Below are positions 1-64,000 of a stretch of DNA of 64,000 nt, one piece after another. The DNA is from Terramyces sp. JEL0728 (taxonomy: Eukaryota; Chytridiomycota; Chytridiomycetes; Rhizophydiales; Terramycetaceae): the NCBI GenBank assembly GCA_027603945.1, contig JADIIU010000009.1:62001-126000 (forward strand). Direction: 5' to 3'. The notes below the pieces were generated by a model. The model was given only the letters and a program-made list of their open reading frames with translations, searched no databases and was not told where the DNA came from. The first letter of the stretch is position 1; each line of letters starts with the position of its first letter. Both the position numbers and the translations under genes were made by a program.

Positions 1-1991
1 GTAAATGATATTGCTGCTTTGAAGCCCATTGTCCAACAACAGAAATACCTCGTTACTATCGATATGATGGATTATCCAGGCAGACAGCACAGACACGCAC
101 TTTTCGTTATATTCGTTCTTGATCATATGCAGTATCTTTTTAATATCTACTTTTTGCAGGAATTGTGGTCTACTTGCAACCACTTGTAGAATGAGGCTCA
201 ATGGTTCAATTGGCTCTTTGTTGATAACGTCTGTCAAAAAATCAAACGGGAGTCTTGATATCACATTGTAAGACTCTTGAATGACTTGTAAGAATTCCGC
301 AGAGTCATTGATATGAACACACAGAGTTTTTAATAGCTCTCGGACAAGCTCTGGCTTTTCTTTTGCAGCTGTCTCGTAATGTTCAAAAGACATTATCTGC
401 AGTATAAACAGATAATGTAGTTTTTCAAAAAGCAATTTCTTTATATCAATCCCGAGTGTAATGCTACTGCGTTAATTAGTGGCCTACCTTTCCTGTTCTG
501 TCAAATGCTTAATAATGGTAGGCAAGACGTGTTCCCAGTGATTCCAAGTAACAAATGACATGATAGAGCAGAATGCTTTCAAAACATAAAAGGAGTGTGA
601 ATTCTTGTAGCTGTAATCCAGGATTTCAAACAAATATTCCACTGAAAGACTTTTACTATGGTTTTCTGCAAAAGATTGCACGAGAATCAGATGTTTACAA
701 TCAGAGTCTTGCATTTCTTCATAGCTATCATCAAAAGATTGGTCTGAATCGGACAATAGCGCTAGCATCCTGAACATGTGCAGCATTTTTTCTTTTTGAA
801 GCAGCAATAGAATAATAATAGAGTCAATTTGAGGAGTGTCGGCTTCCAGCAGCAAATTCAATATGTCTGGATGCGCAATCTGAAATATTGGCAGCAGGTC
901 CACTTGATCGGCAAAGAACAGCAGTTGATAGCTCAGTTTATCGCTAGAATTAACTTTAATTACACTAACGCTGGGTTTGCCTCGAGTGAAATTTCCTTTA
1001 CCATTTTGTGTGCAACTTCTCTTCTAGAACCATGAATCTTTGAGAAGATGTTTTCACAGTCAAGTGCCAACCACATAAGAATTATTCCACAATTGTTGTT
1101 TTCCGCTATCATTGCTATCAGGCCGTCAATCAAGGTATTTCTTTTCCTTAATAGAAATACAACCAAGTGTGAGACCAGATAGATTTCAACTGGATCAGCC
1201 ATGTTGTTCAATACGCGTAGTATGTAAGCAATCACCATAAATCCGTGTACATTCAGCACAAATTCAATTTCCTCTGTATTACTGTTTGCAATTAACGCGC
1301 ACATACTTAATACACTGTAAACATCACTAATTTCCAGCATTTCATTTACAAATTCGGCTATGGACAGATTTTTGACAAAGGCATTGAAAATAATATCCAT
1401 AAGTTTATCGTCATATTGTAAATTCTTTGCACTGCGGATGAATATCAATGAATAATTATTGACAGCGTAAGGTTCAAGTGCTGTTAAAACTGTTGACATT
1501 TCCACGTGTAAATGATTCTTTCTAATGAGCAACGCCAAAACATTTAAACTAATCGAGGTAATTTTGGTATGCTGCATGTTTCCATCAATCACTCCATCGT
1601 TGCTTATGATTTTATGCAGTGGTTCCAGGAGCTGGTATTCGAAACCAGGATTTAATTGCGAATAAAATGGAATGTAATCCTTGGATATGGAGAGCCCGAG
1701 ACAGTATTCGATGATAGTTAGTGCTCTGTGCTTTTCCTTCCTGCCTCCATGCAGATCTTTGATCAACAAGTCCCAATAAAACTCTAGGTATATTAGCCAG
1801 TCAAATATAATCAGGGTAACGTAGTGATCTTGTTTTGTGCGATAAAGCTTAAATTGTGTAAGATGGCTATATACAGCAACTGGATTCTTCCTGACCAGTC
1901 GTAGGAAGGAATTCATCATTGGGTTTGTAAATTTACACGACGCAATTAGCTCCGAAGTAGACTGACTGTAGACCTCGCTGATCAAATTCAT
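1..1991 (-). CDS. Helical-repeat protein of unknown function (3' end outside window)
   Basis: The reading frame opens at the ATG at 1991 (leftward) and continues off the left edge, so the C-terminus is missing. Two introns are needed: 944-969 (26 nt) and 467-487 (21 nt). Both begin GT, end AG and carry a TTAAT or CTAAT element near the acceptor. The joined product exceeds 640 residues. It is almost entirely amphipathic alpha-helical with many Leu/Ile-rich segments, as in ARM/HEAT-type solenoids, and shows no catalytic motif, signal peptide or membrane segment. I do not recognise the family. The nearest rightward gene lies about 700 bp away. The coding call is strong because the frame stays open across both splice junctions; the function is unknown. 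Confidence 0.7.
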
Positions 1992-2233
1992 CAAAGGTTA
2001 ACCTTAATCTCGTGATCACAGAATGACATTGACAGCGGCGAAACTGAACGATCGGAAATTTTTCACAGGTGGCTTGGAATAAAAAGAAAAAAATACCAGT
2101 AGAATTCCTAACTTTTATCACGACTTGAAATCGTAGTCGAAAGAAGATTTCAAATGTGTTGCAGCAATGATTACAACCGTTTAGAATCAATGGAGGTCTT
2201 GCACCGTTGACGACAAAAAAACTTTTTAACATG

Positions 2234-2439
2234 GTAATTTCTTTTTAATTCTAGCATCACCATATGAGCTACTAACACAGCAAATGTTCTTTCAATTACG
2301 CGTTGAATCGTTAAAGCGAATGATGTTATTATCCGTGTTTCACCTGAATCATGATGCCAAATTGGAAACTGACGCTTTACAGGTTTTAAATCGCCTGTAG
2401 AGCCAGATTGATTGGTATCTAGTTCTACGTTCTATTTAA
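2234..2439 (+). other. Unresolved short coding fragment with micro-introns
   Basis: Two sequences look like the short introns of this genome: 2234-2254 (21 nt, ends TTAATTCTAG) and 2383-2400 (18 nt). Between and after them one frame is open and ends at TAA 2437-2439. It contains a leucine-rich stretch around an internal ATG near 2283. I could not find a convincing first exon: the frame entering 2254 has a stop just upstream unless a longer intron is used. This may be a real small gene of unknown function or chance. The rest of 1992-2715 holds no gene I can support. Confidence 0.2.
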
Positions 2440-2715
2440 CCTTATTAAACAATGCTTATAGTGGTACATGTACCAGTTATGTGTATTTGATTCCCGCATT
2501 GGAGATCAATTAAATTCCTTTAGAGCTCTACAATATGTTGATATATTTTAGAGTGTAGATGGGGTTTTACATTCTTGGCTCAGATACCTGGTTTGAGTTA
2601 CGAGATAGTTGAGCATCTTTTAATAATGAGAGTGCTTTCTGGCAGCCGAGCCAGTTACTACCATTGAGAACGCACATCAAATCACTTGACTGAAAATAGT
2701 TTTTCCAATCGCCAA

Positions 2716-5591: not shown

Positions 5592-6087
5592 TGAGATTAA
5601 AAATAAATATTTCGGACATTCAAATCATTATATACCACACAGCCCTTTACCAATCCTTACGGCTAAATTAATCTCACTATACAATCTTGTGGTTCTTAAT
5701 TATGTGGAGCTGAAATGACTTTTATCTAAAGCAATTTGGAAAGTCTGTTGGATCTAGATGAGTACATATCGCAGAGGATATTGTCGTTCTGAATCAACTA
5801 TGACTCTAAAAGCCGCCAAATGGAAAACAGCTCCGCAAGTGTAGACCGCGACAATCATGCGAATAATGTACTCGGAATACTCAGAGAATCTATAATCTAT
5901 CTTTACATTCGGATTCATATTTGAAAGCCGTAACTGGAACTAATCTTACCAACAGTTCGGGAAATATGGCGGCGAAATAAGAATTAATCCTGCAGTAGTT
6001 AATTCACCAAATAAAAAGTTTTACTGCTTTATGCAGAGTTCAATAGGCTCACTTTTAACTATTTTCAGCCGCATTCAAAATCTCGAA
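5592..6087. promoter_or_regulatory. Divergent intergenic region between the Nnf1-like gene and MAPKKK
   Basis: About 500 bp are shared by two genes pointing away from each other, so both promoters must lie here. The sequence is AT-rich with no ORF of note. An in-frame upstream ATG at 6031 would add 19 residues to the MAPKKK; I preferred the ATG at 6088, directly before the charged start and SAM domain. No specific factor site is clear. Confidence 0.4.
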
Positions 6088-9000
6088 ATGAGTGAGAAGG
6101 AAGAAAAAGAGGAGACAAATTTCAAATTGTGGGACTCTGAGAGAGTGGGAGTATGGTTATTGGAAAATGGATTCGACGATTATAAGGACAACTTTTTACA
6201 GCACAAAATAACTGGAGATTTATTGCTGGACCTTAATTACACTACACTTAGAGAAATTGGTGTTATAATAGTAGGAGACAGGGCCAGAATACTGCAGGCA
6301 ATAAAAAGACAATTTAACAAGGACAAACCATCGACCCCAAAAGGCTTATACCAGCGAACTTCCTACCAAAAGCAGCTGAGCGGGGATATTGAAACTGATA
6401 CCAAAAAAGAAAACAGGAATTCATTTGATTTGAAGAAATACGAAAACAGAAATTCAATTGATATCAAAAAGTATGATACGCTGAAATCTGCAGATAATGT
6501 AACTGAATCCCTTTCAAATTCCCCAAAGCAGTTACGAAAAATAAATGTAAACAGCCCAATCGCTATACCAAAACCAGTACGTGATAGTCCGCTACTGAAA
6601 GATCCTGGACCAATTACGACCATCAACAGATCGAGGGAGAATTCTGGTTCTCGAGAAATACATATCCCAACAAAACTAGAGATTGATTCTCACCAGCAAG
6701 CATTTAGGAATCAAAGGACAGGGGTTAGCCAACTGAAAATATTACCGCGCAGCTCTTCAATGAAAGACTCCAAGGAAAAAAAGAGCAACCATCAGGATTT
6801 AAATGAAGCTATGCAAAGTGTATTTGGAATTTCTACAACCCCAAGTAATCACTCTACACCAACTTATGCAAATTCAGCAACATTTTCAACTGTTAATTCC
6901 GCAGCAAGCACCATCCTAGGATTCAATATTCCCACACCGACTCAGTCGATTAATGGTAGCGAGGCTGGATCGACCATAACATCTTTACCACTGCAACCTG
7001 TATAAAATAGCTAATCCTAGGAAAAAAACATAATGGACTTTAAAGGAGTCAGAGAAAAATGTGTCAAAGTCCATGGCCTGGAAAATCATCATGTAATTAA
7101 AGTTGCCGGATTGAAAGATGCATCCTCAATTAGGAAGAGGATTTTACTGAAATTTGGCATCATTGAAAATAGCGAAAACAAGTGGGATTTATTCGTGCTT
7201 ATTGATGATAATCGTAATATTTTCTAAAATAGTGATTCTGTTGGACGACAAGGAATTATTAAAGATATGTGCAACAGATAATGAATTACGAAGCCAGATC
7301 CACCTTCGACAAACTGCAAAACAACAAGAAACCGAGCCGGAAGTTGAAACTAAATCACTGCAAAAATTACATAAATTCTTTGGCGAAAGCCCATCTTCAG
7401 GAGATCCAGTGAAGAAACAGACCAAGAAAGAGACCAAAGCATCAGTCAAAGGTCCTGCCAGATCTACTTCATTGTTTAATCAACACATCAACCCTACCAG
7501 ACCAACTACTAGCAGCAAGAACAAGAATCTGATTGCATTCTTTGGAGAAAGACCCCCAGACGAAATGATTGTCGATCAGCTGGAAAAATTCTTTCCAGGA
7601 ATCAATCTTGCAAAAGAAGAGGGCAACAGCTCCCACAACTCAATTGATATCAAAAATATTGTACAGGCAAACTTGTTGAACAAGCGCTCGTCAAAAAGGG
7701 AGTCGTCGTTTATGCTACGAAGAATGTCGAGGCAGAGTGATATTAAATTATCGCACAGACCACAAGCAATAGTGGTTAAACAGTCGGACCTTAACAAGTC
7801 TGTCACTATGGCTGAATTGCAAAAGATTCAAGAAGAGGATAAAAACACGTTGGACTCTATAGGTTCGGATGTAAACACCATTGGCTCACAAAATACCAAC
7901 ACCGTTCAATCACAAAATGGTAGCTGCATTTTAATTCTAGAAGCAGAGCAGCCACAGGTTGAAAAGAAGTCAAAGAGAGCTTCTGCCGGAATTCGCTGGA
8001 CACCTGGCCAGTTGATTGGGCAGGGGGCATTTGGTAAAGTTTTCCATGCACTTGATCTTGATACCGGTGAGATCATGGCGGTTAAACAGGTATTATTAGG
8101 GATGGATAATCTCCAAGAGAAAAAATCTGCAGATTCCCTGAAGCATGAAATCGAGCTGCTCAGCGAGTTACATCACGACAATATTGTGCGATATATTGGT
8201 ACATTTACTTTTATTCTAGGGTTTGAAAGTAAACAGGACAGTGTCAATGTTTTCTTGGAGTACGTTGGCGGAGGATCAATATCGTCTTGTTTAACAAAAT
8301 ATGGAAAATTTACTGTCGACATTACTAAAAGCTTTACCGCTCAGATCTTGTGCGGTTTAGAATACTTGCATGGCAAAGATATCATCCATCGTGATATCAA
8401 GGGTGCGAATGGTACGTGATATTTAATTGCAGTGTTGGTTAATGGTGATGGTGTAGTCAAGATATCCGACTTTGGCATTTCTAAAAAGAATGGTAATCTT
8501 TTATTTACTTGGAATATTCTGCATATCATCGCATGACCAGGCTATCCATGCAAGGGTCCATCTATTGGATGGCTCCAGAAGCTGCCCGAGGTAAAGGGTA
8601 CTCTGCAAAGGTTGATATCTGGTCTTGTGGCTGTCTAGTTCTGGAGATGCTTACTGGACATGTTCCGTGGCATCAAGTACGAGGAAATATTATTTACCTG
8701 CTTGGAACTGGCAACGCACCTCCAATTCCTACAAATCTGTCGGAAGAGTCCAAGAGTTTTCTCCAAGATACCTTTCAAATCGATCCTGAAAAGCGTCCTA
8801 CTGCTTCACAGCTGCTGGACCATTCTTTCACTGATATAGATATTGCTTCTGTTGATTTCGACACATGGACCAAGATAGCAGCTCAACATAGACTGGAGGA
8901 AGGAAGTACGTCGGAAGAGGAAGGAAAGAAAACCGATTCCGAGTACGAGGATGATTCTGACTTTGATGAGGAATATGAAGACGAGCTTTTGGAGGAGGAA

Positions 9001-9318
9001 GAGAGTCAGCCCACACCTAAATCTGGCTCTCTAGCCATATTACCGGTTGATATTTCACCTCCTACGCCAAATCCCATCTCCCCTGCAAATGATGTTCTTG
9101 ATGCTCAACTGCTGCGAACCGAGAAACCTGCTTTGCTGCGGGTATCAGAAACGAGTGTAGGCCAAGTGAGCGGTAAATCCTCAGTTACCGATAAATATTC
9201 AAAACATAGCTCCTTGCAGTACGACGACTCGTATGACGAAGATTTTTACAATGTCGAATATTCTGCACATGAGGTGGAATCTTTGCAATATCTGTTACAA
9301 ACCCAATTGGACGAGTAA
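6088..9318 (+). CDS. STE11: MAP kinase kinase kinase, Ste11/Byr2-type (SAM-RA-kinase)
   Basis: Spliced length is 1042 aa. The order is a SAM domain (residues ~10-75), a Ser/Asn-rich linker, a Ras-association-like domain (~310-390, with DDNLILLDDKELL), a long disordered region and a C-terminal kinase. The kinase has glycine loop GQGAFGKV, VAIK-type lysine MAVKQ, catalytic loop HRDIKGANV, DFG and WMAPEA. SAM plus RA plus kinase is the Ste11/Byr2 layout of fungal pheromone, filamentation and osmotic cascades. Introns: 7000-7020, 7214-7232, 8199-8219, 8412-8432 and 8493-8512. The third is 21 nt, in frame and stop-free, but interrupts the conserved RYIGFES segment. The fifth is required by frame but lacks an AG acceptor. 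An unusual acidic tail of about 150 residues follows the kinase. A Ste7-type MAPKK lies at 40033-41133. Confidence 0.92.
8493..8512 (+). other. Apparent micro-intron with non-AG acceptor in the MAPKKK kinase domain
   Basis: Upstream, the frame reads DFGISKKN; downstream, EYSAYHRMTRLSMQGS and WMAPEA are in another frame. Removing exactly 20 nt (GTAATC...TTACTTGG) joins them. No AG occurs at a usable position: the next CAG, at 8540, gives the wrong frame. Either the acceptor is non-canonical (TTG or TGG), or there is a sequence difference in the acceptor, or the allele is frameshifted. Confidence 0.5.
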
Positions 9319-9462
9319 ACATTATAATCCCATAACCTTGTTTAAATATAATTTACAATTTTAATTTCTATTCCATAAATCAATCGTTTCTCCGCGAAGA
9401 AGGCTCCACCGCAAAAAGTGGCTGGAACCCTTCACTAATATAAAGCAACAAAGGCTTCGAAA

Positions 9463-12400
9463 ATGGAGCGGATGACAGTAGAAGAGGCAGATAAGAAATA
9501 TCTCGCAGGTGTGATTGAAGAGCGGGACTCTCTTCGTCATCAAAATCTGCAATTGCTGGATATTATTGCAACACAAAAAGAAATTATCCAGCAACTCAAA
9601 GCGAATTCAGGCAATACAACTCAGTTAGAATATGATTTAAATGAAATACCAATGTATAACCAAATCAACCTGAGCGTGAATATCCAGTCAATGATTGCCC
9701 CTCCTCCAAACGATCCGGAAATCATGCAGGAACATAGCAGTTTGAATAGTGCCGCTACACCAGCTACGAAAGAAAGGGCGGCAAATATCATTTCTGAATT
9801 ATTCCAGGAACCAGAAGAGTCAATTAATAAATTAAAGACATTGTCCGTGTTGGAACAGGAGTCGTTAATTGAAGGATATTCTACAATTCCAACAGATTCC
9901 CCAAGCAAACCTATTTCCGAGACAACCCCGGTAACTGAAAAGGAAGTTCCTGCTGCTGTCCAACAAAATGCACAGATAAATACCACAATGCCGTTTAATC
10001 AAAATAATATTCCACCAGTTGCTACAAATCAAAAGCTTCAGGCTCCAAACCAATTTGAACAGCTTCAAAATTTGCGAACCAGCCATGCGAATTTCACCAG
10101 CGATGTATCCATCAACGAACAACCCGCATTTATGAATCAAGACCCTACCGAAAAGCACCTGTCTACTGTGAGAGGAGTAGAAGTGTTTGCTGTAAAGAGT
10201 TTCCAAAGAAAAAATCAGAACGGACCTCCAATTTTGACTTTTGTTTTCAAAATTGTTCAGGAAGGGGATGTTCAATTCCACATAGAAAAGGCGAGACAAG
10301 AGTTTCTGAATTTGGAAGGAACTGTAAAGACTTTGTTCCCCGCTGTAGTTCCCCAGCTTGTTGGCATTCCTGATGCAAACACGTTTTCGCAAGCATCTAT
10401 TGGTCGAAATACTGGAGCATTACTGGAGGGTTGGCTAATGGCTGTTATTCAATCAGCTGGAGATTTCCCAGCGCTTTTGGACTTTATATCTTCGAACCAA
10501 GTGCCAGCCCCACTTGTCAAGGTAGCCAATGTTAATATTAGGAATCTTTCAGAAAAGCTGGATATCTATCAAAGAAAGGGAACTACTTTGGAGGATGGAA
10601 ATCGAGATTCTTTTCTTTGGATACTTCTTCTGGCACAATGTTTTATTCGGATAGTGTAATTTGTATTTTAAATTAGAAACAGGGCGAGGTATTGGGAAGC
10701 TTTGGTTTAAGTTACGCTTTCGCTGCTCCATACATCCCGTCAACCCATTCCAAGAAGGATTCTGAAACCGACAAACCTGGATTGGTGGTGTTGGAATACA
10801 AAAAGAGTTTTTTTACTCAAAATGAAGTGTCTGATGTAATGAATGCTGACGGGCTGCCTAGTGGGAAAATAGATTTCCGCCATGTTTTCTTTGCAGAATC
10901 ATTGCAAGACAGAGATAACTGGCTGCGCTGTATTTGCGGAGTAATTGTTAAATTGCGGCCAAGCGATACATATGCATCGTTTTTGTTTTCTAAAACTGTC
11001 CCTCCAGAAAATGTCGACCTTAGGCGAACCCCATCTAGTGCCTCTCTTAATGCATCTTTGAAAAGAACTGTAACAGCACCTCCACAAATTCAAAGTGCAA
11101 CCAAAAAAGATGAACTATCATTACCAAGGAAGGTAGATGTTGAGAAAGCTTACTCCACCAACACTGACGATATTTCACATACTGTTCCAGTGGATTCAAA
11201 AGTGAAAATACCTGTTCCTGTATCGGAAAACGCTTTGGGGGTTGAAATAGTTGGCTCTCCTTCAAATGATAGTCCAGTGGTCAAGTCAAATACAATTGAA
11301 AAGAAAATAGGTACAAGACCCAGACCACAGGCTCTGCCTATTTCTCCAACCTCCAATATCAAATTGGAACCTGCTTCCATAAATTCACGGCCTGTAACTA
11401 GATTTATCGATGACCACACCAGGTGTATGCAACAACAACCCCCACTTCCGTTGGCGGAAGAATTGCACTATGGTTCTGCTGCAAAAACAGTAATTGAACC
11501 TGGAAAGCGAAAAGGAAATATTTTCAAAGAATGGATAAAAAGAAACAATTCTGAATCTAAAGCCTTGCGTCCAGTGTTCGGTGTATCACTGCAAGAGGCG
11601 ACCAACATCTCCAAAATCAGAGATGGCATTGAATTGCCTGCAATCATCTTCCGCTGCATCGAATATCTTGATGCAAAGAAAGGTTTCTAGCGATTAATGT
11701 TAGCGTACGACGAGGAAGGGCTTTACCGATTATCTGGCTCTTCTGCGATGATATCCCAATTGCGGGCTCGATTTGACGAAGGTGGGTCATAAACTAATAT
11801 TCAGAGGGTGATGTTCCGCTCCTGGAAGGCGATGTTTACTATGATCCCCATGCTGTTGCGGGGCTATTGAAATTATTCTTTAGAGAATTGTCAGAGCCGT
11901 TGTTTACGCAAGAATTGAGAATGGAGTTCTTCCAGATATCTGGTAATCAAATTTAACCATAGAAATACCGGATAGAAATAGCAAAATTAAACATGTAAAA
12001 AGCCTAGTTGCTCGACTGCCTGCATCTAACTATACATGCATCAAGTCATTGCTCGGCCATTTGTTGCGTGTAGTACAAAAGAGCGATAAGAACAAGATGA
12101 CGGTCCGCAACGTTTCCATTGTATTTTCACCAACATTGGGTGTCCCTGCAGGTCTTTTCACTCTGCTGTTGGCCGAATATTCCACAATATTTAGTTGGGC
12201 ACATAATGATAAGGCGAGAGGTACCGAAGCGGAGAGTACTGCACCGGTAGTCGCTGCTACAGAAAATGCAATTGGTACGATAGTCGAGGAGCAAGAAGCA
12301 AAAGGGTTGGCAAAAGTGCCGGCCCACGTTCCAGTAATAGATGTTAGGAATAGTGAATCTCACTCCCATCAACTCCATCGACCTGTGACTCCCGATCCCC

Positions 12401-12927: not shown

Positions 12928-13012
12928 TAAAGTACTGTATTCATTTACCATTGACACGCGGTAATGATGGCGTTTGTTTGGGCTTTGACATTTTCTTGGG
13001 GAAATCTGCATA

Positions 13013-14230: not shown

Positions 14231-14398
14231 AGAAACTTTGGTTTGATTTGAAAGGCATATGCACTGGAATAGCCACTCAGATACCAGATTCTGACCTTAT
14301 GGGCATGCGTGCATTTTATTGCAGTCGCTTGCCCATGAAATCCTGTCTGATTTTTTTCTCGCTTAACATTTTTTCAATCTCAAGAGAGTAATTTGAAA

Positions 14399-15947: not shown

Positions 15948-16055
15948 CTCAGGACAATAAAAAGTTTTCAAATTAATTTACAATTTGTCAATTTAACTCA
16001 ATTTGAGTGATGTGGCTTTGCTGTACAAAAACCCGAATATTACAGATGGAAAGTG

Positions 16056-18055: not shown

Positions 18056-20327
<2,272 letters not shown>

Positions 20328-26009: not shown

Positions 26010-26184
26010 TATTTTGAAAGGAAAAAAGCAGGTGGGACGCACATCGCACCATGAACGCATGATTCCGCAAAAGTCAGGGGCCAACGAGACTAGCATTATC
26101 GGGCAGAATCACCATGTTAAAGTGTCCAAGTCTATTATATTGCTTGTCTGCTGCTATCCGTCCCATGACATCATATTTTCTTTA

Positions 26185-37452: not shown

Positions 37453-38137
<685 letters not shown>

Positions 38138-38214
38138 TGCTAATATTAGGCGGATGATCTAGCTATTTATTCTTATAACAATAAAATTTTGAAGATTTTT
38201 ATTCCAGTTTTTTA

Positions 38215-45837: not shown

Positions 45838-47388
<1,551 letters not shown>

Positions 47389-51900: not shown

Positions 51901-52851
51901 TGATTCAGCAGTCTTTTCGTAATATACCATTAGCCCAGTGTTCAGTCCTACAAAAATACCCCCAGGGAAAGCTGTTATTGCTGTTACAGATGGCTTAGGA
52001 GGCTGTTCAAGCACGCCGTTATTGATAACTATCGGATATACATAAGTAAATTCAGACACCATTTCGCCGTTTTCAAATACAAGAACATCGCCTTTGCTTG
52101 TGCCACAAATCACAATTGCCTCATTATACCACGCATGGCATTTAATATCCTGTTATCAGCTAAACATTTACGCTCTCTATCTTTGACTGATGGATTAGTT
52201 TCAGGAACCCGTCTTGGAATCTGAACTGGCGGAACAAGTTGATTCCTGTCAAAATAATCTGTGTTGGCCCAATGTCTATTTGATTGGTGGACATATGCCT
52301 GATTGTGTTGTTATTGACAGACCCTTTGGTAGTATTGTTGATCAATTTCATTTTGTCTATTGTCCATACATATATATTCCTATAATGAAGCCGCAAATAC
52401 CAGTCTGGCCCAAATCCTTGTCCAAAAATATGAATTCCATCTGTTGGAAACGCAATAGATACAAATCCCTGCGTCAAAAACAGTTACCGTTGTTGCATTT
52501 GATTCTAGTGGCCGAAATAGTTTCTTTTTCTTACCGGTGAGGATATCAAACATGGCAATATACGGTCTTGTTTTCCCAGATTCTATCCCTGCAGGATATT
52601 TTGTTCCAATCGCAATACAATTTTCCGCATAGTTGATAGCCATACAGCTAATTTCTAGATCATCCAATTGGATTGGCATAATATGCTGAGTTTTCTTTTC
52701 CGTATTATATTGGATCAGCTGGTTCCCAACAGGATATATTACTGTCGAATCGTCCAAGAAGGCAATATTTTGGTTGACATCGTTGTTGATACCGAAAACA
52801 TAACTGGTGTGAGCTATTAGGCTACCTCGGGGTTAACGTTGGAGTTGACAT
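48977..52851 (-). CDS. CFAP57: CFAP57/WDR65 flagellar protein (WD40 plus coiled coil)
   Basis: Fourteen introns of 19-22 nt join to 1196 aa with frame kept throughout. The first ~650 residues are two WD40 propellers ([10 protein letters not shown] start; [37 protein letters not shown]), the rest a long coiled coil after [14 protein letters not shown]. That order and the junction motif match CFAP57, an axonemal protein at the base of an inner dynein arm (subset g/d) near the dynein regulatory complex. It is found only in organisms with motile cilia or flagella, so the organism very likely makes flagellate zoospores. This is the most intron-rich gene in the window. Confidence 0.92.
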
Positions 52852-52948: not shown

Positions 52949-55900
52949 TTAAAATAGCTGTAAGATTTGAGCAGTTGATCCTTTGAGCGATGCAACTTTT
53001 TGGTACCGCTCATGTTCCAAGAAGGTTTGCAAGGAAGCTTTTAACTTTTCAACACCAAAAATTTTCGAATATTCAGCTGGTTCATATAGCTTCTTAAACC
53101 TGCGGATAGCGGCTGCAAACGACTTTAGAATGGCCTTGATCCTGTCTTTTGGCAGCCCGTAAACACCTCCTTCGTTAACTGTCGGTGCCTTTTCAATCAC
53201 TTCAACAACGCCTTGCGACAATTTTGATAATAACTTTGCAATATCAGACTTCAAGGATACTTCCGATTCCAAACTCAAATTCTTGAGAGTTGCTACTATT
53301 ATTTCGTACGCCTTGACTAGGGAAAACGATATTGGTTTGTTCTTTTGAAGTGTATACTCTATCATATGCGGCAATATTTCCCATGCGACCGCATTACATC
53401 TTTGTGCCAAGCCTGCAAATAGAACATGTCTAATTTTTGAATTCTTTGCAGTCATAAATTGTGTGAATGAAGCTTCATAAATTTCAGCGGCCTTTCGAAC
53501 ATTAGACTAAATTAGAATTCAAATACTTTTTTCGAGCCTGTTTTTTGTTTCTTGTTCTTTGTTGGAGCAGTGTCTTCCTTTGAAGAAGCGCGACAAATGG
53601 CTTTAGTAATGAAAATAGAAATCCCAGAATAAATAGAAGCAGATTTAAGGTCAGCAACTTTAGAAGAAAGTTTGTGGATGTTGGAAAGCAGCTCCAGCAA
53701 AGTGGCACAATCATCGATTTCAGGTAGTTCTTTTGCATTTGATATTCTAGATTGCAATAAAGCCCCAATTTTGTTGTGCAGCACTTTGCTGTCTTCGCTG
53801 CCACTAATCTCCGAGTAAATATCAATGAGAGGTGCGATAGCAGTCAACACAATTGGCTTGTTAATATTTACTTTGAAAAAGATTTCCAACAAGTCCAGGA
53901 CACGCAGTTTAAAGTGCAAAACACTTTCTTTTGTTTCAAGGGTTAAAATGCTCTTACCTTTCTTTACGGTCTTCATAGCCTTTCTTTGACTGAAAATTTC
54001 AGCTAACTTGCCGTCGAAAGCTGCCATACCTTCATCATCAAGATCCGACATTTCAACATCATTGTCAATTTCTAGTGCTTCTTGAATCTTTTGTTTCAAT
54101 TCTTCATCAACAGGCTCTCCGTCATCGTCTTCTTCGATATCTGCATCATCCTCTTCACTTTCTTCCTCATCCTCTTCTTCATCTACTTCCAATTCTTCTT
54201 CGTCTTCAAATAGTTCTTCAGCGCCTTGTACACCAGCTTTGGCAGTTAGTACATCGAAAAAGAGCTCAACAACCTTTTCAGTAGCTTTATCAGCAAACAG
54301 CTTGAAAACATCGGTAGCCAACCCACGCTGTACTGCAGACGGCTTTGCCAGGAAAGATATCAAGATATCAGTCAAAACCTCAACAGGAGCCAATTCTTCT
54401 TCGGTTTCCTCTTGTTTCCTCTTCTTGTTTTTTCCTTTTACCTCTTGTGGGTACATTAAACTATAGCAATCCTTGATTTCTTTTACCAGTTCAACAGATT
54501 CATCCTGCACGTGGTGAATGTAAATAGCAGTGTGTGCCAAAAGCAGCCTGAATCCCTCCAGTTCATTCTTGATATCTTCTCTTAGTTTGATCTGCGAGGA
54601 AATATTTTGGATGCTGGACCAGGCATGTTCGGTTGCAGCAACCCCTTCTTCTCCAAGGGCAACAGACAATTTCAGATTCTTATTTTTCTTCATTTTTTCA
54701 ATCATTTCAAGGATAGTATAAACCCAAGAGCTTCCATTAGCCAACTGGCCTGGTTTCAAAGAATTTTCATCGGTTTTGAAGGAAATGGTTTTCAAGTAAG
54801 CCAAAGACGAGATGCACTTTTCCCTGATTGATGTTTGGCATGCAAGGGAGAGTTCTGGTTCTACTACTTTGACAAATCCATCTTTCTCGTTTTTGACAAC
54901 AGTAAAGAACCCGTGGGTAACCATAAATTCGACAATATATGTAATCCATTTTTCTTCCTTCTTGATTTTGCCAGTGCGAACAAACAAGTACATTTGATCA
55001 ATAGTCCAGAGTCTGATGCTATTTTGATCTCCGTCAGCACTACAATTAGTTCAAAAATACCCATTAGATAACAACGAAGGATCAAAAAAGACTTTTGTCA
55101 GATATTCCAAGAATGATTGGATGCCTTCGGATGTCAGCTCACTCAAGATAGTTTCCACTGTCTTTGTTTTTGTGATTTGGTCGAATTTAAAGTGGCCGTG
55201 TTTTCCCAAGAGCTGCATGACTAACGGTAATGCTGCATTTGGGTTCTTTGAAGCAAAATCACACAGCTGGGTAGTCGTATAGCGAGCCTGCTTAAACAGG
55301 AAGGTTTCTTTGCTGGATAAACTGTTGATCAAGCACCTTAAAAAGTTTTGGGTAAATAACACTGGCACTTTATCACTAGGAGTTTTGGAGAGTATTTCCA
55401 AAAATAGTTGGAATCCAATGAATTTGCGTTCATGAGAAGAATTAAAAAATGATTCTGTCTTAATTGGCAATTACCTTCGATTGCGGTCCAAAATTCAAAC
55501 AAGGAAATGGTGGTGGTAGATTCTAAAATAGCTGAAATGATACTCTTAAACACGGGATGCAACATTGAGGTATTGTGATAAGTTGAAGTTGTCAATATTT
55601 CCAATACTTTATGCTTGTTCTTTGGATACAGAACATCTCCTTTCTTCCACTCAGAGAGCAAGTTTCCAAAAGGCGGAATCCCTTCAATTCTTCCTGCTTC
55701 AACTGCAAACCACAAATCATCGGCGTCTACAATCCCATCTTTCAAGTATAAAGTTAAAATAATCTGGGAAAACTCTTTTTTCAAAGGATTGGATTGACAC
55801 TACGGTTAGGATAAGGTACATTTTCAAGGACGGTGATCATGATTTGGGCACAAACGTCTCTAAGGTAGTCCTTGGTTTTGCTAATCTTCACAATCGAGCC

Positions 55901-56370
55901 GGTAATAGTTTGAACATCAGCTTCTGTGGTTGATTCCAACCCCAAAATTCCTGCCTGTGCTATAGCTTGATATCCAAATAATCTCGCAAAATAAAATTCT
56001 CTTTCTTCTTGGCCAGTTTTAGTTCCATTCTTTTCTGAAATGTCAAATAATAACTCTAGAATAAATACAGTTGGAAGTTTCAATAGTCGCAAAAGCTTGG
56101 TTAAAAACACAATACCTCCGTCAATGCAACTGCGAATCCTTGTCTTGCGCCATCTCTTGAAGAAGACAAACCTCTTAATAATCTCTTTAATGCGTATGAA
56201 ATATCAGGCGCACTGTGGGTTTGAAAATCTTGTACTGTTTTGATTTCAGTTGTATATTCAGCATGCAGCGCCGTCAATTTGTTAATAAGAGAGAATGCAG
56301 CATTATTTCTCTTTTCTGGATCAATAGCTGCCAAGTCCCAGTACTCTGAAAGGGTAGTTTGTTCGCTCAT
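52949..56370 (-). CDS. POL5: Pol5/MYBBP1A-like nucleolar protein (DNA polymerase phi family)
   Basis: About 1100 aa of HEAT-like helices with a long acidic stretch (poly Asp/Glu around residues 620-720), basic KKKQKTGSKK near residue ~930 and a C-terminal helical domain. The N-terminus (EYWDLAAIDPEKRNNAAF, RLLRGLSSSRDGARQGFAVALTE) is characteristic of Pol5/MYBBP1A, which lacks true polymerase function and acts in rDNA transcription and 60S processing. Introns 56096-56115, 55455-55474, 55040-55060 and 53507-53526 (20, 20, 21, 20 nt) are clean. A fifth discontinuity near 55775-55803 needs a 29-nt cut, or coincides with a duplicated 5-bp AATCC, so a true frameshift is possible there. Confidence 0.88.
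55775..55803 (-). other. Frame discontinuity in POL5: 29-nt intron or 5-bp duplication
   Basis: The frame breaks between VPYPNRSVNP and LKKEFSQIILTL. The minus strand reads AATCCAATCC here. Deleting one AATCC restores a continuous reading, VNPLKKEF; alternatively GT...AAG of 29 nt, lacking the usual YTAAY element, can be spliced. Confidence 0.5.
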
Positions 56371-56826: not shown

Positions 56827-57599
56827 ATGGACACACCAGATGTTGACAGAAAGCAGGTGCGTTATAACTCATGGTAGATAGATAAAGCAATCAAGGCGCT
56901 ATTTAAATGGAATGCAAAGCAAGGAAAGCAAAACGATTTAATTGAAAAATACGACAAAGTTTGGCTGGTAGTAACAACGAAAAAAATGCCAGACAGGAAG
57001 AGAGTCAAACCAGAATCAATTCTAATTACCAATTCGCTATACAACGATAAAGAAATCTGTCTTTTCACAAAAGACCCCCAAAAAGATTACAAGGAAAAAC
57101 TCACCACAGAAGGAGTAGAAAATGTCAAAGTAATAGGATTAAGCAAGTTGAAGGCTAAATACAAGCCATATGAAGCTAAAAGGGAATTGGCGGCATCGTA
57201 CGACTTGTTTGTGACTGACAACCGTATTGTTGAATTCTTGCCAAAGTTGCTGGGAAAGACCTTCTTTCAAAAGAAAAAGTATTTGTTGTCTGATTTAGAA
57301 TCCCTGTTACTGTTGATTTGCGCAAGGAGCACATCAAACCAGAAGTCGACAGAGTCCGCAACTCCACATTCATTCATTTCAATATGGGAACTTGTTTGTA
57401 ACTTGCTATTTATCCTAGGTCTATTTACGCTGCTACTACTGAAATGACTCAAGAGCAATGTGTAGAGAATGTCGTTGACATCTGGAATGAACTTGATAAA
57501 ATACCCGGCAAGTGGGATAACATTTTATCAATTAATTTAAAACTCACTGAATCAATTTCACTTCCAATTTACGCAACACTGCCAGAACCAGATGAATAA
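56827..57599 (+). CDS. UTP30: Utp30/RSL1D1-like ribosomal L1-domain protein
   Basis: Introns 56857-56877, 57279-57298 and 57398-57418 (21, 20, 21 nt) join to 236 aa. The L1-type domain has WLVVTTKKMPDRKR, VIGLSKLKAKYKPYEAKREL, SYDLFVTDNRIVEFLPKLLG, KKKIPVTVDL, then STFIHFNMGTC, TQEQCVENV and SLPIYATLP. KLKxKYKPYEAKR and NxGTC distinguish Utp30/RSL1D1 from the ribosomal protein uL1 itself. The yeast protein is a nucleolar pre-ribosome factor. The stop is within GAATAAAG, a fused polyadenylation signal. A telo-box in the promoter fits co-regulation with other ribosome-biogenesis genes. Confidence 0.9.
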
Positions 57600-57636: not shown

Positions 57637-58744
57637 TCACTGTAAGCACTCTGTAAAAGATTGTCGCAGCAATTCTTCATTTAAATGATGACCAATGAAC
57701 ACCAATTTGTTTGTCCTCTTTTCCTCTCCCCATTCTTGCCCTTTTTGAATGTCAAATAACTCCAAGACGGATTGAACTACATATTTGTGATGATTGCCCA
57801 TATTAACCAACGCCTTAAACCTCAGTATTTCCATATCTTTGCCAATCGATCTTTCCCATAATACTTTCTGTAGCCATTCGTCAAGTTTCTTGTTGTCCAC
57901 TGTTCCCTCCAGACTAAAAGCGATTGTTTTGACAGTCTAAATTAGAGAAAGCAACCTGTACTGCATGCTCAACGTGTATTTTGTTTTCTTTTTCAAATGG
58001 ATCTTTGTGATGGTGATCAAACGAATGCAAATCAAAGATAAAGTCGACATCTGCCTGTGATTGAACTGTTTCTGCAATCTTGGCAACAGAGTTGATGGCA
58101 CCAATTCGAGCTTTGAGTGCCAAAAGCGTAGGAGGGTCTACCAAATCAATCTTGTTTAGTATGATTCGATCGGCCAGTGCGATCTGTCTAAATTAGCCAT
58201 TATTACTTTGTTGCTTCATTCAAACCAACTTTGGCTTCATCCAAATAGTTGGAGATGTTTTTCGCGTCTACGACAGTTACAATACCTAATATTAGATACA
58301 GGCACCATCAAGGTACAGCTCACTTTGAAGTGCCTCGTCCAGCCAAAACATCGAAGCTATTGGCCCTGGATCAGCGAGGCCTGTAGTTTCTAGTAATACA
58401 TAATCAAATGTTTTGTTTCTTTTCAGCAAGTTTTCAATAGCTTTCACTCCTGAATCTTTTATTGAACAGCAGAAACAGCCGTTTGCCAACTCTAGCCACT
58501 CTTCTGTGATCTTGCCATCCTTCAAACTGAGGCTCTTGTCGATGCCTGAACTTGATCCAAATTCGTTTAATATAACAGCAATCTTTTTGTTGTGTGTATT
58601 GTCATTTAATAATCCCATGATGAGTGTGGTTTTTCCAGAGCCTAGAAATCCAGTAATAATGGTAACGGGGACTGGACTAGTCCTCATTGATGTGATAGAT
58701 ACGCTTTGCACGTCAGGAACTAGCATTGGTATATCGTCGTCCAT
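57637..58744 (-). CDS. ZNG1: CobW-family GTPase, ZNG1/CBWD-like zinc chaperone
   Basis: Introns 58286-58305, 58188-58206 and 57937-57955 (20, 19, 19 nt) join to 349 aa. The GTPase core has GFLGSGKTT (P-loop), VILNEFG, the metal motif NGCFCCSIK, LLETTGLADPGPIASMFW and NKIDLV. A His-rich HSFDHHHKD loop and the CobW C-terminal domain (EILRFKALV...VQSVLELFD...TNKLVFIGHHL) follow. ZNG1 hands zinc to methionine aminopeptidase through a short N-terminal element with a CPEL/LVP-like motif; here DDDIPMLVPDV occupies that place. The ATG at 58744 is preferred to an upstream TTG. Confidence 0.92.
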
Positions 58745-58835
58745 TGGATTCAAAGTAGAGATTAGTGATAAATTTAAAAAAATTAGTCGAGACAATGGCC
58801 AGCTACCACCGGATCAACAAGATTGGCTTCAATAT

Positions 58836-60452
58836 TTATTGCTTATTTTCCTTTTTGACGTACTTTTCCTTTTCGATTCTCTTTTCCAAGAATAGCATGA
58901 GAGCGTCCTTCCCTTCTTTTACTGCTGCATTTAATTCAATTGAAAAGTTGTTGTCACGCAAATCCAGGTACTACATTAGTGCATGGTTACTGAGATTAAT
59001 TTCAGCCCAACAAATTCATTTGGAATGTCCAACAAGTGATTATTATCGGCAGCGAATCTGGTTAATTTGGTGCATTGGCCTAGTCCGCCTGGCAAGGCAG
59101 ACAACAAGTTAAATCTGCATTCAAGAACGGTCAGATTTGCAAGAGAGCTAATTTAAGCAGCAGTTACCAAATTGAATCGGGGAGCTTTTCAATCTTGTTG
59201 TTGCTGATAAACAATTTTTGCAGCTTATCCAACTTTTTTATATTTTCTGGAATAGAATTTAATCCATTGTGAGCGACATCCAACTCCAGCAACGGCAGTT
59301 CCAAGATTTCATCGCAAATGGTACTGAGATTATTGTTGCTAATGTAGAGTTTCGTCAGGCTGGAAAGGCTGGATAAAGATTCGGGGAGATTGAACGTGGT
59401 GATTCTATTCTTGCGAACATCCAGTTTCACCAGCTGGATAAGGTTTCCAATGTTCAATGGTAAAGCTGTGATCGAACAGTCTTGACAATCCAAAGTTTTC
59501 AAGTTGACTAAATCACAAATACTATCTGCCTTTAAATTAGAAATACCTGGCATTTCTTCAATCCTTGGATGCTGTCTGATAATCAGTTCCTGCAGGTTAA
59601 CCCAGTTTTCCAGAGCCCAAGGGAAGTGTTCCGATTTAGTGTTATAAATAATCAAAGATTTTAAGTTAGTCATTGAAGAGCAAGATATTGGCAGTCCAAT
59701 TAAGTTGTGGTTTTCTTGCAATTCTAATATTTCCAAATTCGACAGGTTGCCAATTTGATCCGGAAGTTCATGCAGATTATTCCCAGATAGTTTGAGCACG
59801 ACTAAATTAAAAAGCGATCCAAATGATGATGGGAGTCCGGAAATAGTGTTTTTTGATAGATCGAGATACTGTTGTAAAGCGTAAACTACCTTCAGATTAG
59901 ATATTCTGTCAATTTTTTGTCCTACTGATTTTATCTTGTTGTCATTCAGTAGCAGCTTGGACAAGTTCTCTTGCAGGTCGAATAGGCATTCTGGAATTTC
60001 CTTCAATTAGAGTAGAGATACCGTCAATAAATTCTTTGATAAATCCAAAGTTTTTAAATTCTTCAGCAATCCAAACTGTTCCGGAATCGTTCTAGTTTAG
60101 CAGCTACGTACTCTATCTGATTCGAACCAAGATTGAGGGTTTCCAAATTCTCCAGTTTTCCAATGGTGTCGGTAATTTGAGAGTAAAATAGTCTGTTATT
60201 ACTCGCCAGTATCGTAACTATCGACACTGGTAATCCAGAAGGAAAGCATTTTAGATTATTATCACTGACATCAAGAAAGTTTAGCGAGTCTAATTCGCCA
60301 ATCTCTGGCAGAAGCTGCAATGAGTTCTGGTTCAATTTTAATCTTTTCAGCTTCTTCATTTTCAACACATTTTTCGGCAATTCCTTGATTTTTTGATTTG
60401 ACAAATCCAATTCGCTCCCATAATCTTCTACTTTTGATGCGCAACACCCCAT
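58836..60452 (-). CDS. Leucine-rich repeat protein with N-terminal acylation motif
   Basis: Six introns of 20-21 nt (60092-60111, 60001-60021, 59869-59889, 59526-59546, 59148-59167, 58971-58990) join to 497 aa. The start reads MGCCASK: Gly2 for N-myristoylation and Cys3/Cys4 for palmitoylation. The rest is ~16 leucine-rich repeats of ~23 residues (LxxLxLSxNxI/LxxLP), ending in a charged coil. Two introns (59869-59889, 59526-59546) are 21 nt, in frame and stop-free, and only their removal keeps the LRR spacing. Type resembles Ras-group (PIRL/SHOC2-like) LRRs that act as membrane-bound scaffolds. I do not know an orthologue. Such acylated LRRs are unusual in fungi. Confidence 0.82.
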
Positions 60453-60694: not shown

Positions 60695-61683
60695 ATGCAA
60701 AGATTTCACACAAAAGGATTCAACGGATACGCAGTAGAGTTCAGTCCGTTCTTTAAAGAGCGGTGCGCAGTGGCATCCGCAGCAAATTTCGGAATAGTTG
60801 GTAATGGAAGACTGTGGATTCTGCACAATAACACTGTCCAGCAATTGTAATAATTACTAATCAAGATACGACACTCAAGACGGACTTTTTGATCTTAGTT
60901 GGGCAGAAAACCATGAAAATCAATTGGTTACTGGGTCTGGAGATGGGTCAATCAAATTATTTGATGTTACAATGCCAGTAGATTCTATTTGATATTAGGA
61001 TTTTCCAGTAAAGAATTATTTAGAGCATACAAAGGAAGTCTACTCGGTAAACTGGAACATGGTAGCAAAGAATACTTTTATTTCAGGATCATGGGATTTG
61101 TCAATCAAACTTGTATTTGGACTTAATATTAGTGGAATCCAGAAATCCCACACTCTATTCAAACGTGGCAGGAACATGGACATTGTATTTATCAAACTGT
61201 TTGGTGTCCCCACAGTGCCGAGGTGTTTGCTTCTGCTTCTGGCGACCATACCGTTAAACTATGGGATATCAGATCGCCGCAATCAGTGCAGACATTCAAA
61301 GCACACAATAACGAAGTTCTGGCTCTGGATTGGAACAAGTATGTAAAGAACACCATCGTTACAGGTAGGTTTTGTTAACATGAGGAAGTGTTGATACCAC
61401 CATAAAACAATGGGATCTAAGAATGACCAATCAACCTACGCTCGTCCTACAAGGGCATGAATATGCTGTGAAAAAGATAAAATGTTCGCCCCACGATGGA
61501 AATATGATTGCAAGTGTATCGTACGATATGACAATGCGATTGTGGAATCTGGCAATGTGTAAGCAAACGTTTGTGCATGATAAACACACAGAGTTTGTTC
61601 ACGGGCTAGATTTCTCACTCTTTATTCCAGGACTGATCGCAACATGTGCCTGGGATGAAGCTGTTGATTTCATACAAATATAA
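60695..61683 (+). CDS. PEX7: Peroxin 7, PTS2 receptor (WD40)
   Basis: Introns 60847-60865, 60978-60998, 61113-61132 and 61365-61384 (19, 21, 20, 20 nt) join to 302 aa. The N-terminus RFHTKGFNGYAVEFSPF followed by GNGRLWIL is diagnostic for Pex7. Six WD40 blades follow (LVTGSGDGSIKLFD, SGSWDLSIKL, ASASGDHTVKLWD, TGSVDTTIKQWD, ASVSYDMTMRLW, CAWDEAV). Pex7 carries proteins bearing the N-terminal PTS2 signal into peroxisomes together with Pex20/Pex5-type co-receptors, so functional peroxisomes are implied. The last blade is slightly short, so a small final exon could have been missed. Confidence 0.93.
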
Positions 61684-61995
61684 TACAATGTAGCATTATC
61701 TTATTCGGCCCTGTTGATTAATGAAATTGGTATCATGGGACTCTACTACCAGTGGATTTCGCTGTAACCGGTAACACGTTGCTGGGTGAGTTTTCCGCAC
61801 AAATCCAAAATTTGAAGCAGAAAGGCTTTCGGATAAGAATGCAAATGCTCAACTACTAGCGGATATAATATTTGATGGATTTGGTTATTTCCAATCTTTC
61901 TTTTCTTGAAATGGATTTCCCGTCTGTACAGCCTCATTAATCTGTGCGCAAAGACAGAAAAAGTATAAATTTCAGGTGAAGGCAGGCAGGCAGAA
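61684..61995. other. Gap between PEX7 and S1/P1 nuclease gene
   Basis: About 310 bp. No supported gene. A GGCAGGCAGGCAG run lies just before the nuclease start at 61996. Confidence 0.4.
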
Positions 61996-62859
61996 ATGGC
62001 TTTGATTGTCTCGCTACTATTTAGTGCACCCTCTGTCTATGCATGGGGAAGTGAAGGGCATCAAATCGTTGGAAGTATTGCTCAAAATTATCTGGACACC
62101 AATGCTGCCACACACGTCAACTCAATCCTATCTGCTAACCAAGGACAAATGTCAGCTGTTGCCACCTGGGCTGACTCTTACAAGGTAGTTGGCGTTTAAT
62201 TCTAGTATACATCAGCAGGAGCCTTTTCAAAACCACTTCATTTTGTGGATATCCAGGACAATCCACCAACCAGCTGCGGCTACAACGAAGAACGAGACTG
62301 CTCCAACGCCAACTGCATCAACACTGCTATCCAAACTTACACAGAACAACTATGTGATTCGACCAAGAACTTGAACGCATTAAAGTTCTTGATCCACTTC
62401 TTTGGGGACATCACCCAGCCGCTCCACAATTCTTACAGAGATGTCGGAGGCAACAGCGACAGTGTTACCTATAACGGTGCGTCTACCAATCTTCACCATA
62501 TTTGGGATACTGAAATGGTCCAAGATCGCATTGCTGCAAATACCGACCAAGCGGCTTATGTTTCCAATCTGATTAAAGCAATCGACTCTGGTGCGTACAG
62601 CTCTGTGAAATCAACATGGGTATCTTCTCAAGCCTACAATGCAGCGTCATCTTATGGAAACAACCTCGCGTCCATCGACTATTCCAAAGATTCTGATATT
62701 TACGACTGCTCTTATACATGGGTTCAATACGATGCAAACCCTTCTCAAGACTTTTCTGGCTCCTACTATCAAGGAGCTGCACCAATTGTTGATGTTCAGT
62801 TGGCCAAGGGTGGCTATCGGTTGGCCAAACACCTAAGTGCAGCTTTTGCAAAATGCTGA
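61996..62859 (+). CDS. Secreted S1/P1-type zinc nuclease
   Basis: A 21-nt intron at 62185-62205 joins to 280 aa. A signal peptide (~1-16, cut after VYA) exposes Trp1, required for zinc binding. Zinc ligands follow: WGSEGHQIVG (Trp1 and His), WADSY (Asp), LHFVDI (His), FFGDITQPLH (His/Asp/His) and LHHIWD (His/Asp). Cysteines for disulfides are present (SCGYNEERDC, CINTA). S1/P1 nucleases cut single-stranded DNA and RNA; fungi and protists secrete them to scavenge nucleotides or phosphate. No GPI or membrane anchor at the C-terminus, so it is probably free or vacuolar. Confidence 0.93.
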
Positions 62860-63071
62860 GTCTGCACGACGTAATAAAGCTAGATTTTCATCCGTTAGTT
62901 GTTTATTGCCAGATATTTTACCAAGGCATCTGAAAGCCAATTCGCTATGTTCTTGGGAAATTAAAGTCTGGAAGATCCTGGAAACCTAATCTGTATCGCC
63001 AGTGGCTATGGAAACAGACTGCGCTGTAGGTTAGCTGTCTTTTAAAATTAACTTTTTTTTTCTTTTTTGTG

Positions 63072-64000
63072 ATGGATTTTTTCAAAGTATTGGGAGCTGG
63101 AGCCAAATTCAACAGGAAATACAAGCCAGAAAGGAAGGAAACTAAGGAAATCAAGAAGGTGGATGACGATGAACCAGAATTAGATTTCTTTAATGACAAA
63201 CCAAAACCAAAAATCTTGGAAACAATTCAGGACGCAAATGAATGGAGAAAAAAGAATAACATCAAAGTATATGGGACAGATGTTCCTCATCCTTTCAAAA
63301 CCTTTGAGGAATTAGGAGAGAGATTTCAGTTTAAAAACTATTTGCAGAAAAATATTTCCAGTGTGTATGAAACCCCAACGCCAATTCAAATGCAATCCCT
63401 TCCTGTCATTCTCCATGGAAGAGACTTGATTGCGTGTGCCCCAACAGGTTCTGGTAAAACTTTAGCATTCTTATTGCCTGTTTTACATGTTTTGAAGGCA
63501 CCAGCAAAAGAGGGGTTCAGAGCAGTAATTATATCTCCAACGAGAGAGTTAGCTGCTCAGGTATTGCGTTTCTAATGTAGATTCACCGTGAGATACAAAA
63601 GTTGATTGTTGGGAAGCCATTTAAAGTCTGTGTATTGTCAAAAGCTAATACTGCAAGCAATTTGAAGAGCTATGGTACTCAATGATTAACAAGATATTCT
63701 TATTACGACGCCTCTTGTCCTTGTGAACGCACTGAAGCATGAAATATTTAAATTAGACAGGTGAATTTCGCTCTAACGCCAGAGTACGGCAGCTTGTGCT
63801 GGATGAAGCTGATAAACTGCTAGAAGCTGGATTCCTCGAGCAAGTGGATGATATTTTCTCTGCCTGTACAGACTCTAAACTCCAGATATCCTTATTCAGT
63901 GCCACGATTTCATCTGGAGTGGAAGAGCTGGCTAAAAGTTTTATGAAAGATCCGCTGAGAATCGTTGTAGGGTTAAAGTAAGATATTGGTAACGCCAGGA
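63072..64000 (+). CDS. ROK1: DEAD-box RNA helicase Rok1/DDX52 (3' end outside window)
   Basis: From the ATG at 63072 (an upstream GTG is not used) to the window edge. Introns 63561-63580, 63675-63693, 63761-63782 and the last, 63978-63998, which ends two bases before the window end. Motifs: Q-motif region [14 protein letters not shown] (I), PTRELAAQ (Ia), TTPLVL (Ib), DEAD (II) and SAT (III). The N-terminal [20 protein letters not shown] is characteristic of Rok1/DDX52, needed for snR30-dependent 18S rRNA processing. The second RecA domain lies beyond the window. Confidence 0.92.

Follow-up and report, generated by a model that had tools for sequence, protein, structure and literature searches.

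Predicted U2-type introns of about 20 nucleotides and almost fixed geometry in the genome of the chytrid Terramyces sp. JEL0728

How short can an intron become and still be removed by a fungal spliceosome? The lower limit of intron size bears on how the spliceosome folds its substrate and is a long-standing question, to which ciliates, relic nuclei and reduced parasites have hitherto supplied the extreme cases; lengths of about 20 nucleotides come near the lowest known to be spliced in any cell. It is raised here by C9:62001-126000, a stretch of 64,000 nucleotides (nt; hereafter the window) from the 231-contig, 15.0-Mb assembly of Terramyces sp. JEL0728 (Terramycetaceae, Rhizophydiales, Chytridiomycota), in which a first-pass annotation had placed about 115 introns, mostly of 19-24 nt, and had proposed fungal-type, nuclear, spliceosomal introns of this size throughout the genome. 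Here we report that gene finding, motif analysis and comparison with homologous proteins agree with that proposal. We are highly confident in reading the segments as the U2-type spliceosomal introns of a chytrid, apparently shrunken to a layout that is close to minimal and almost invariant. Terramyces is best explained as a new addition to the small set of tiny-intron genomes, its introns being ordinary U2-type ones except in their extreme size.

Gene finding was carried out on the window together with a stretch of another contig of the same assembly (C1:1-200000), 264 kb in all. In the flat run, an exon-intron model with order-4 coding statistics trained on long open frames, the splice signal consisted of the two end dinucleotides only and the length prior was flat from 10 to 150 nt. 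With GT...AG as the ends, 27, 52, 41 and 17 introns were found at 19, 20, 21 and 22 nt (137 of 432 introns of all lengths), the remainder being mostly scattered thinly over other lengths in the manner of noise, while 13 decoy dinucleotide pairs gave 6-24 introns in the same four bins. Self-training from this flat start raised the GT-AG score to 10615, as against 8377-9254 for six decoy pairs, and placed 420 of 475 GT-AG introns at 19-22 nt, as against 13-44 for the six decoys. Lesser decoy peaks lay at other lengths (63 introns at 17 nt for AT-AG, 35 at 16 nt for GT-AC).

The final self-trained model admitted GT or GC donors, AG acceptors and introns of up to 60 nt, a limit set because a finder allowed up to 400 nt fused neighbouring genes; the length survey covers introns within this limit. 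The model contains 479 introns in 162 gene models, with 5, 96, 178, 122, 27, 12 and 3 introns at 18, 19, 20, 21, 22, 23 and 24 nt (443 in total, mean 20.3 nt), 2 that are shorter and 34 that are longer. The length distribution, which the first-pass annotation had suggested plotting, peaks at 19-22 nt and is narrow at genome scale, with 396 of the 479 introns at 19-21 nt. Most of the 36 introns outside 18-24 nt look like noise, and one of the over-long calls is a 22-nt intron by homology. The depletion of stop-free introns (30 of the 122 introns of 21 nt) was set aside as evidence, the finder being biased against such introns.

Within the window, at least one intron of 18-24 nt was found in 34 of the 41 gene models, and the 124 introns of up to 60 nt include 119 of 18-24 nt and 106 of 19-21 nt. 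Comparison with homologues rejected two of the 119 calls, shortened one intron into this class and added two others, giving about 120, in good agreement with the earlier estimate. The genome-wide part of that proposal is upheld as far as sampled: 324 of 355 introns in C1:1-200000 are of 18-24 nt, and each of 26 further loci, about 3 kb apiece and spread over 20 contigs, chosen for other reasons, in part overlapping or near-identical and in one case overlapping the C1 stretch, has at least one such intron (103 of 127 introns under a flat prior of 12-60 nt). The density of 1.68 tiny introns per kb corresponds to about 25,000 in the 15.0-Mb genome, extrapolated from 1.8% of it.

The tiny introns share a quantised internal layout. 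In the final model 439 of the 443 introns of 18-24 nt have GT-AG ends and the other 4 have GC-AG ends. Column counts, which involve no branch-point calling, show an A at nucleotide 14 in 91 of the 96 19-mers, at nucleotide 15 in 115 of the 122 21-mers, and at 14, 15 or both in 175 of the 178 20-mers. The A belongs to a YTAAY motif and is followed by 5 or 6 nt ending in YAG or AAG, such that 14+5 gives 19 nt, 15+5 or 14+6 gives 20 nt, and 15+6 gives 21 nt. Under a simple branch caller, the four main combinations of length, A position and nucleotides after the A are (21,15,6) in 84 introns, (20,15,5) in 81, (19,14,5) in 76 and (20,14,6) in 75, together 316 of 443; 20 introns have no good branch site by this caller. 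A strong branch motif is present in 310 of the 443 introns, as against a mean of 97 when the interiors are shuffled. This 14/15 plus 5/6 geometry provides a directly testable rule.

Of the donor, little more than GTA(A) is left, and its +5 position is weak: among 401 introns of 18-21 nt, 191 carry T there and 75 carry G. The commonest first hexamer, GTAATT, opens 51 of the 443 introns. A link between +5 G and longer introns was rejected (Fisher p 0.15). Total motif information is about 15 bits. A scan for motifs and spacing, with a threshold that by construction retains 101 of 113 window introns, found one decoy in 50.4 kb of sense exons in the window and 6 in 161.0 kb in C1, 4 and 11 on the antisense of these exons, and 2.4 and 11.3 in codon-shuffled exons; antisense is the fairer control, since the sense counts may be low through the finder itself calling such sites as introns. 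The small number of decoys at this threshold suggests that short motifs at fixed spacing are nearly sufficient to mark an intron.

Splicing at these sites restores conserved proteins. Ten conserved genes chosen from the 41 window models offered 51 testable junctions, 47 of which are clearly supported by homologues as gapless, with one weak and three not as called; Pfam domains are whole in all eight spliced proteins scanned. One of the ten is CFAP57 (48977..52851, minus strand), for which the earlier reading of many introns stands and its count of 14 becomes 15, all of 19-22 nt, by alignment to five homologues: 49137-49156, 49459-49478, 49686-49707, 49882-49901, 50202-50221, 50516-50534, 50646-50665, 50735-50753, 51029-51048, 51413-51432, 51739-51759, 52150-52171, 52380-52400, 52469-52487 and 52804-52825. 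Here 14 of 16 predicted junctions are supported by the homologues; a call at 51293-51313 was rejected as exon in all five, and a 31-nt call at 49677-49707 was cut to 22 nt (49686-49707) by moving its acceptor. NDUFA9 (23666..24921, minus strand) likewise has many introns, eight in our model where seven had been counted (23846-23866, 23934-23952, 24303-24323, 24466-24486, 24579-24599, 24698-24720, 24784-24804 and 24884-24903); all seven testable junctions are gapless, the eighth lying in the variable N-terminus.

Beta-tubulin (45838..47270, minus strand) has introns at 47205-47226 (22 nt), 47145-47168 (24 nt), 46944-46964 (21 nt) and 45879-45901 (23 nt), and its spliced product of 447 amino acids aligns to a solved tubulin chain (8snb) with no gap at any of the four junctions. 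The first two of these introns were missed by the model and placed by hand, and a call at 47091-47113 proved false, as it falls within conserved beta-tubulin. The gene's ATG is split by a putative intron of 117 nt, read from the sequence (47271..47387, minus strand; GTAAGT...CTAACCTTTTAG), with a full GTAAGT donor and a CTAAC branch motif. Judging by this candidate, some longer introns seem to have been kept in the genome, and they may form a separate class with stronger donors.

In four of the remaining genes every testable junction is gapless: the PRP43/DHX15 helicase (18056..20261, minus strand; introns 18284-18304, 21 nt; 18859-18880, 22 nt; 19518-19538, 21 nt; 19635-19655, 21 nt; 4/4), a MAP kinase kinase (40033..41133, minus strand; 40157-40176, 40392-40410, 40536-40554 and 40832-40851; 4/4), eIF6 (34336..35094, plus strand; 34882-34902, 21 nt; 1/1) and a ubiquitin hydrolase with zf-UBP and UCH domains (26059..27668, plus strand; 26645-26664, 26773-26792, 27034-27053, 27200-27218 and 27289-27308; 5/5). 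The last tally leaves out a 41-nt call in the same gene, 26529-26569, which has CTAAC with its A at nucleotide 15, like the tiny introns, but its sole AG 26 nt beyond. A Rab8-like GTPase (37453..38157, plus strand; 37517-37538, 22 nt; 37779-37797, 19 nt; 37893-37912, 20 nt; 38130-38149, 20 nt) is gapless at its three covered junctions, the fourth lying beyond the alignment. In PEX7 (60695..61683, plus strand; 60847-60865, 19 nt; 60978-60998, 21 nt; 61113-61132, 20 nt; 61365-61384, 20 nt) three of four are gapless; the exception is the first, where the protein falls five residues short of its solved homologue although the intron has the canonical geometry (19,14,5). A ribosomal L1-domain protein, RSL1D1/Utp30-like (56827..57599, plus strand; 56857-56877, 57279-57298 and 57398-57418), has two clear junctions and a weak third, with small indels 1-5 residues off.

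The deposited proteins of the same strain splice many of the same segments, and the introns are thus partly in the databases already. Over 59% of its length, our spliced PRP43 shows 100% identity to HDV01_007601, and over 79% the spliced CFAP57 shows 98% identity to another deposited Terramyces sp. JEL0728 protein; next closest are proteins from Boothiomyces species. The deposited CFAP57 splices ten of the introns, nine of them exactly as here and that at 49686-49707 with its 22-nt acceptor, omits exons 3 and 4, and reads through the last intron, where it stops; the deposited PRP43 splices two introns as here and reads into the last one. In the relatives, inserts of seven residues (GTYILNL, GTLELIA, GSISLIL) occur at intron sites in Boothiomyces PRP43 and NDUFA9 and in one metagenome PRP43, and each back-translates to a possible 21-nt GT...AG intron with YTNA at nucleotides 12-15. 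Such inserts at two or more intron sites indicate that tiny introns are probably shared with Boothiomyces, and a 9-residue insert in Kappamyces PRP43 hints at a candidate 27-nt intron there. NDUFA9 and a peptidyl-tRNA hydrolase-like gene stand in tandem at 23666-26009; in public models from Boothiomyces and Kappamyces the pair appears as a single fused gene, perhaps an annotation artefact.

A search for the machinery, which the first-pass annotation had proposed for small nuclear RNAs (snRNAs) and U2AF, succeeded in part; it covered the U1, U2 and U6 snRNAs genome-wide, and the large U2AF subunit. U2 is clear and ordinary (140.2 bits, GUAGUA intact), and the fit of the YTAAY motif to this GUAGUA supports membership in the U2-type introns. 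The gene for the large U2AF subunit was also found, encodes an intact and ordinary protein, and itself holds four introns of 19-20 nt, scoring 334 bits spliced and 251.7 unspliced against a family cut-off of 310.3. An Rfam scan gave no match in the 64-kb window nor in 200 kb of contig C1. Among U6 candidates, two Rfam matches score 27.4 and 26.9 bits, below the cut-off of 44; they are in stretches of DNA that are nearly identical and appear to be coding, overlap a 20-nt GT...CTAAC...TAG segment and were set aside; a further 7 + 3 pattern and query matches have a context unlike U6.

Several points weigh against the interpretation as U2-type introns. Removal from RNA is deduced from the DNA, and the branch point is a predicted motif, for which ties in the caller were resolved to the 3'-most A. 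The strength of the motifs is partly built in because the caller's model uses donor and acceptor motifs, a circularity checked by means of the flat-prior run and the antisense decoys; in the former, the AT-AG decoy had a higher total score than GT-AG (7955 against 7891). Homology exposed two of the 119 window calls as false and one acceptor as misplaced, which points to an error rate of a few per cent in the calls outside the homology test. Neither U1 (Rfam and pattern search) nor U6 (Rfam, four patterns and one 68-base query) was found in the assembly, in both cases without a positive control, which may reflect an assembly gap, divergence or genes split by introns. U6 genes carry introns in some fungi.

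Three rival explanations were weighed. The segments might be bypassed by ribosomes, or be eliminated from the DNA like the internal eliminated sequences of ciliates, and DNA data bear on the level of removal indirectly. Bypass elements or eliminated DNA, however, would need no GT-AG ends, branch motif, U2 or U2AF, whereas Terramyces has GT-AG ends, a U2-matching branch motif at a fixed 3' distance and genes for both U2 and U2AF, and many of the segments are annotated as introns in the public record of this contig; we consider either process very improbable. Sequencing or assembly indels are known to break frames in draft genomes, and a gene finder could span the resulting spurious frameshifts by inventing short introns, but in one length class GT...AG is favoured over all 13 decoy pairs, the branch motif holds a fixed position, and Boothiomyces proteins carry inserts at the same sites, which makes artefacts of this kind scarcely credible.

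A different alternative accepts the tiny introns as real and holds that they are recent, introner-like insertions rather than old introns that shrank, and the high density of about 1.7 per kb would suit it. Near-identical groups of introns are absent, however; the most similar pairs share at most 17, 18 and 18 nucleotides among 19-, 20- and 21-mers, no more than in column-permuted introns, and Boothiomyces too appears to have a 21-nt intron at two or more of the sites. On this evidence a recent introner-like origin seems unlikely.

If the segments are indeed shrunken U2-type introns, a spliceosome of mostly ordinary make-up would recognise each of them as one unit (intron definition). The donor would cover nucleotides 1-6 and the branch helix about 9-16, such that the U1/U6 and U2 helices would almost abut, and the branch would close a lariat loop of 14-15 nt. 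There is no space for a polypyrimidine tract 3' of the branch, and U2AF would therefore act otherwise or contact a T-rich stretch upstream. The fixed spacing itself may carry part of the recognition information.

The first-pass annotation had attributed lengths near 20 nt to ciliates and some nucleomorphs, which is correct; to these, published work adds the mikrocytids (16-17 nt, PMC10245619) and the fungus-related microsporidian Encephalitozoon (from 22 nt, PMC3629993). Among the closest parallels is the ciliate Stentor coeruleus, in which introns measure 15-16 nt and the branch A occupies position 10 (in 15-mers) or 11 (in 16-mers), the commonest intron being GUAAUUUUUAUAUAG (PMC9505925). 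Like Terramyces, Stentor is a free-living cell with genome-wide tiny GT-AG introns and a conserved U2 branch-recognition site; it has 5 nt after the branch A, as in many Terramyces introns, and its commonest intron starts with GUAAUU, the equivalent of the commonest Terramyces hexamer. Stentor differs in that the distance from donor to branch A is 4-5 nt shorter (10-11 as against 14-15), its branch region is described as having no strong consensus where Terramyces has a clear YTAAY, and all of its snRNAs were found, unlike U1 and U6 here. The likeness in donor and 3' spacing to a ciliate suggests convergence.

Chlorarachniophyte nucleomorph introns, at 18-21 nt, belong to a similar length class with a similarly narrow range (PMC10245619, PMC5014332); they number more than 800 in the relic nucleus of an endosymbiont, in contrast to the roughly 25,000 extrapolated for the 15-Mb nuclear genome of Terramyces. 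According to a review of ciliate introns, nucleomorph introns of 18-20 bp are removed efficiently and those of 21-27 bp much less so, and size may itself be a signal in nucleomorphs (PMC5014332). In mikrocytids the introns of 16-17 nt are very uniform and conserved in sequence, as in Terramyces, but these are intracellular parasites, unlike Terramyces, with 224 introns in 179 genes in M. mackini and a strongly reduced spliceosome of 17-19 proteins plus U2, U4 and U6 (PMC10245619). Trichomonas has one intron of 23 nt (PMC12316389).

On the fungal side, the closest short introns that we found described are those of Encephalitozoon cuniculi, at 22-76 nt (PMC3629993); this reduced parasite has few introns over a wider range, whereas Terramyces has a narrow 19-22-nt peak and about 1.7 tiny introns per kb. 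Other fungal introns share the GT-AG ends and a branch motif with those of Terramyces, and chytrids were found to be intron-rich in a fungal survey (4.5 per kb in Gonapodya), in the extract of which Cryptococcus introns, averaging 63 bp, count as relatively short and none of 20 nt are mentioned (PMC8476143). Among the fungi that we found described, Terramyces is the first with a 20-nt intron peak. Searches of one open-access library, in which most subscription papers and all bioRxiv preprints are missing, turned up no account of introns like these in a chytrid, and one may exist elsewhere.

We tentatively propose that in Terramycetaceae, and perhaps in more of the Rhizophydiales, ruler-like splicing evolved independently of the ciliates; we see this as a serious possibility that falls somewhat short of probable. 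Such a system would measure tens of thousands of introns by two branch distances (14/15) and two 3' distances (5/6), would do so with an otherwise unreduced-looking spliceosome, and would have arrived at the same weak GTAATT donor and 5-nt spacing as Stentor. Under this ruler-like proposal U1 and U6 could be altered or themselves be split by tiny introns.

The practical side of these introns lies in chytrid gene annotation: the models available for Terramyces and its chytrid relatives appear to drop, pass over or translate part of them. In a 2026 study of the related Rhizophydium megarrhizum, one assembly gave a genome BUSCO of 76.9% and a protein BUSCO of 40.5%, for which the authors blame fragmented models resulting from an Augustus option (PMC13391722). 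Unmodelled tiny introns could be a further cause of the low protein figure.

Further window genes were called by the model outside the homology test, and their junctions are model calls. The region 6031..17470 (plus strand) holds five more genes with tiny introns, including, under names suggested by their translations, what are presumably a kinase (7000-7020, 7214-7232, 7920-7940, 8199-8219 and 8412-8432), a PX/PH/RhoGAP gene (10522-10541, 10656-10676, 11683-11703, 11782-11804, 11943-11962 and 12750-12770), a SWIRM/Myb gene (15329-15349 and 15432-15453) and a FAD oxidase, whose intron at 16511-16530 is of the GC-AG type and has the usual branch motif. Models at 8548-9318 and 13013-14230 in the same region are intron-free. 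On the minus strand, a gene at 52949..56370 that we take to be POL5/MYBBP1A-like has introns at 53507-53526, 55040-55060, 55313-55336, 55455-55474, 55523-55543, 55800-55819 and 56096-56115. Within 57637..60452, also on the minus strand, lie a CobW GTPase (57937-57955, 58188-58206 and 58286-58305), whose CobW domains are whole once spliced, and a leucine-rich-repeat gene (58971-58990, 59148-59167, 59526-59546, 59869-59889, 60001-60021 and 60092-60111). Elsewhere in the assembly, contigs C199 and C111 carry near-identical sequences with a one-base difference inside a short intron-like stretch, and pairs of equal-scoring WD40 matches occur within single contigs (C29, C44, C210).

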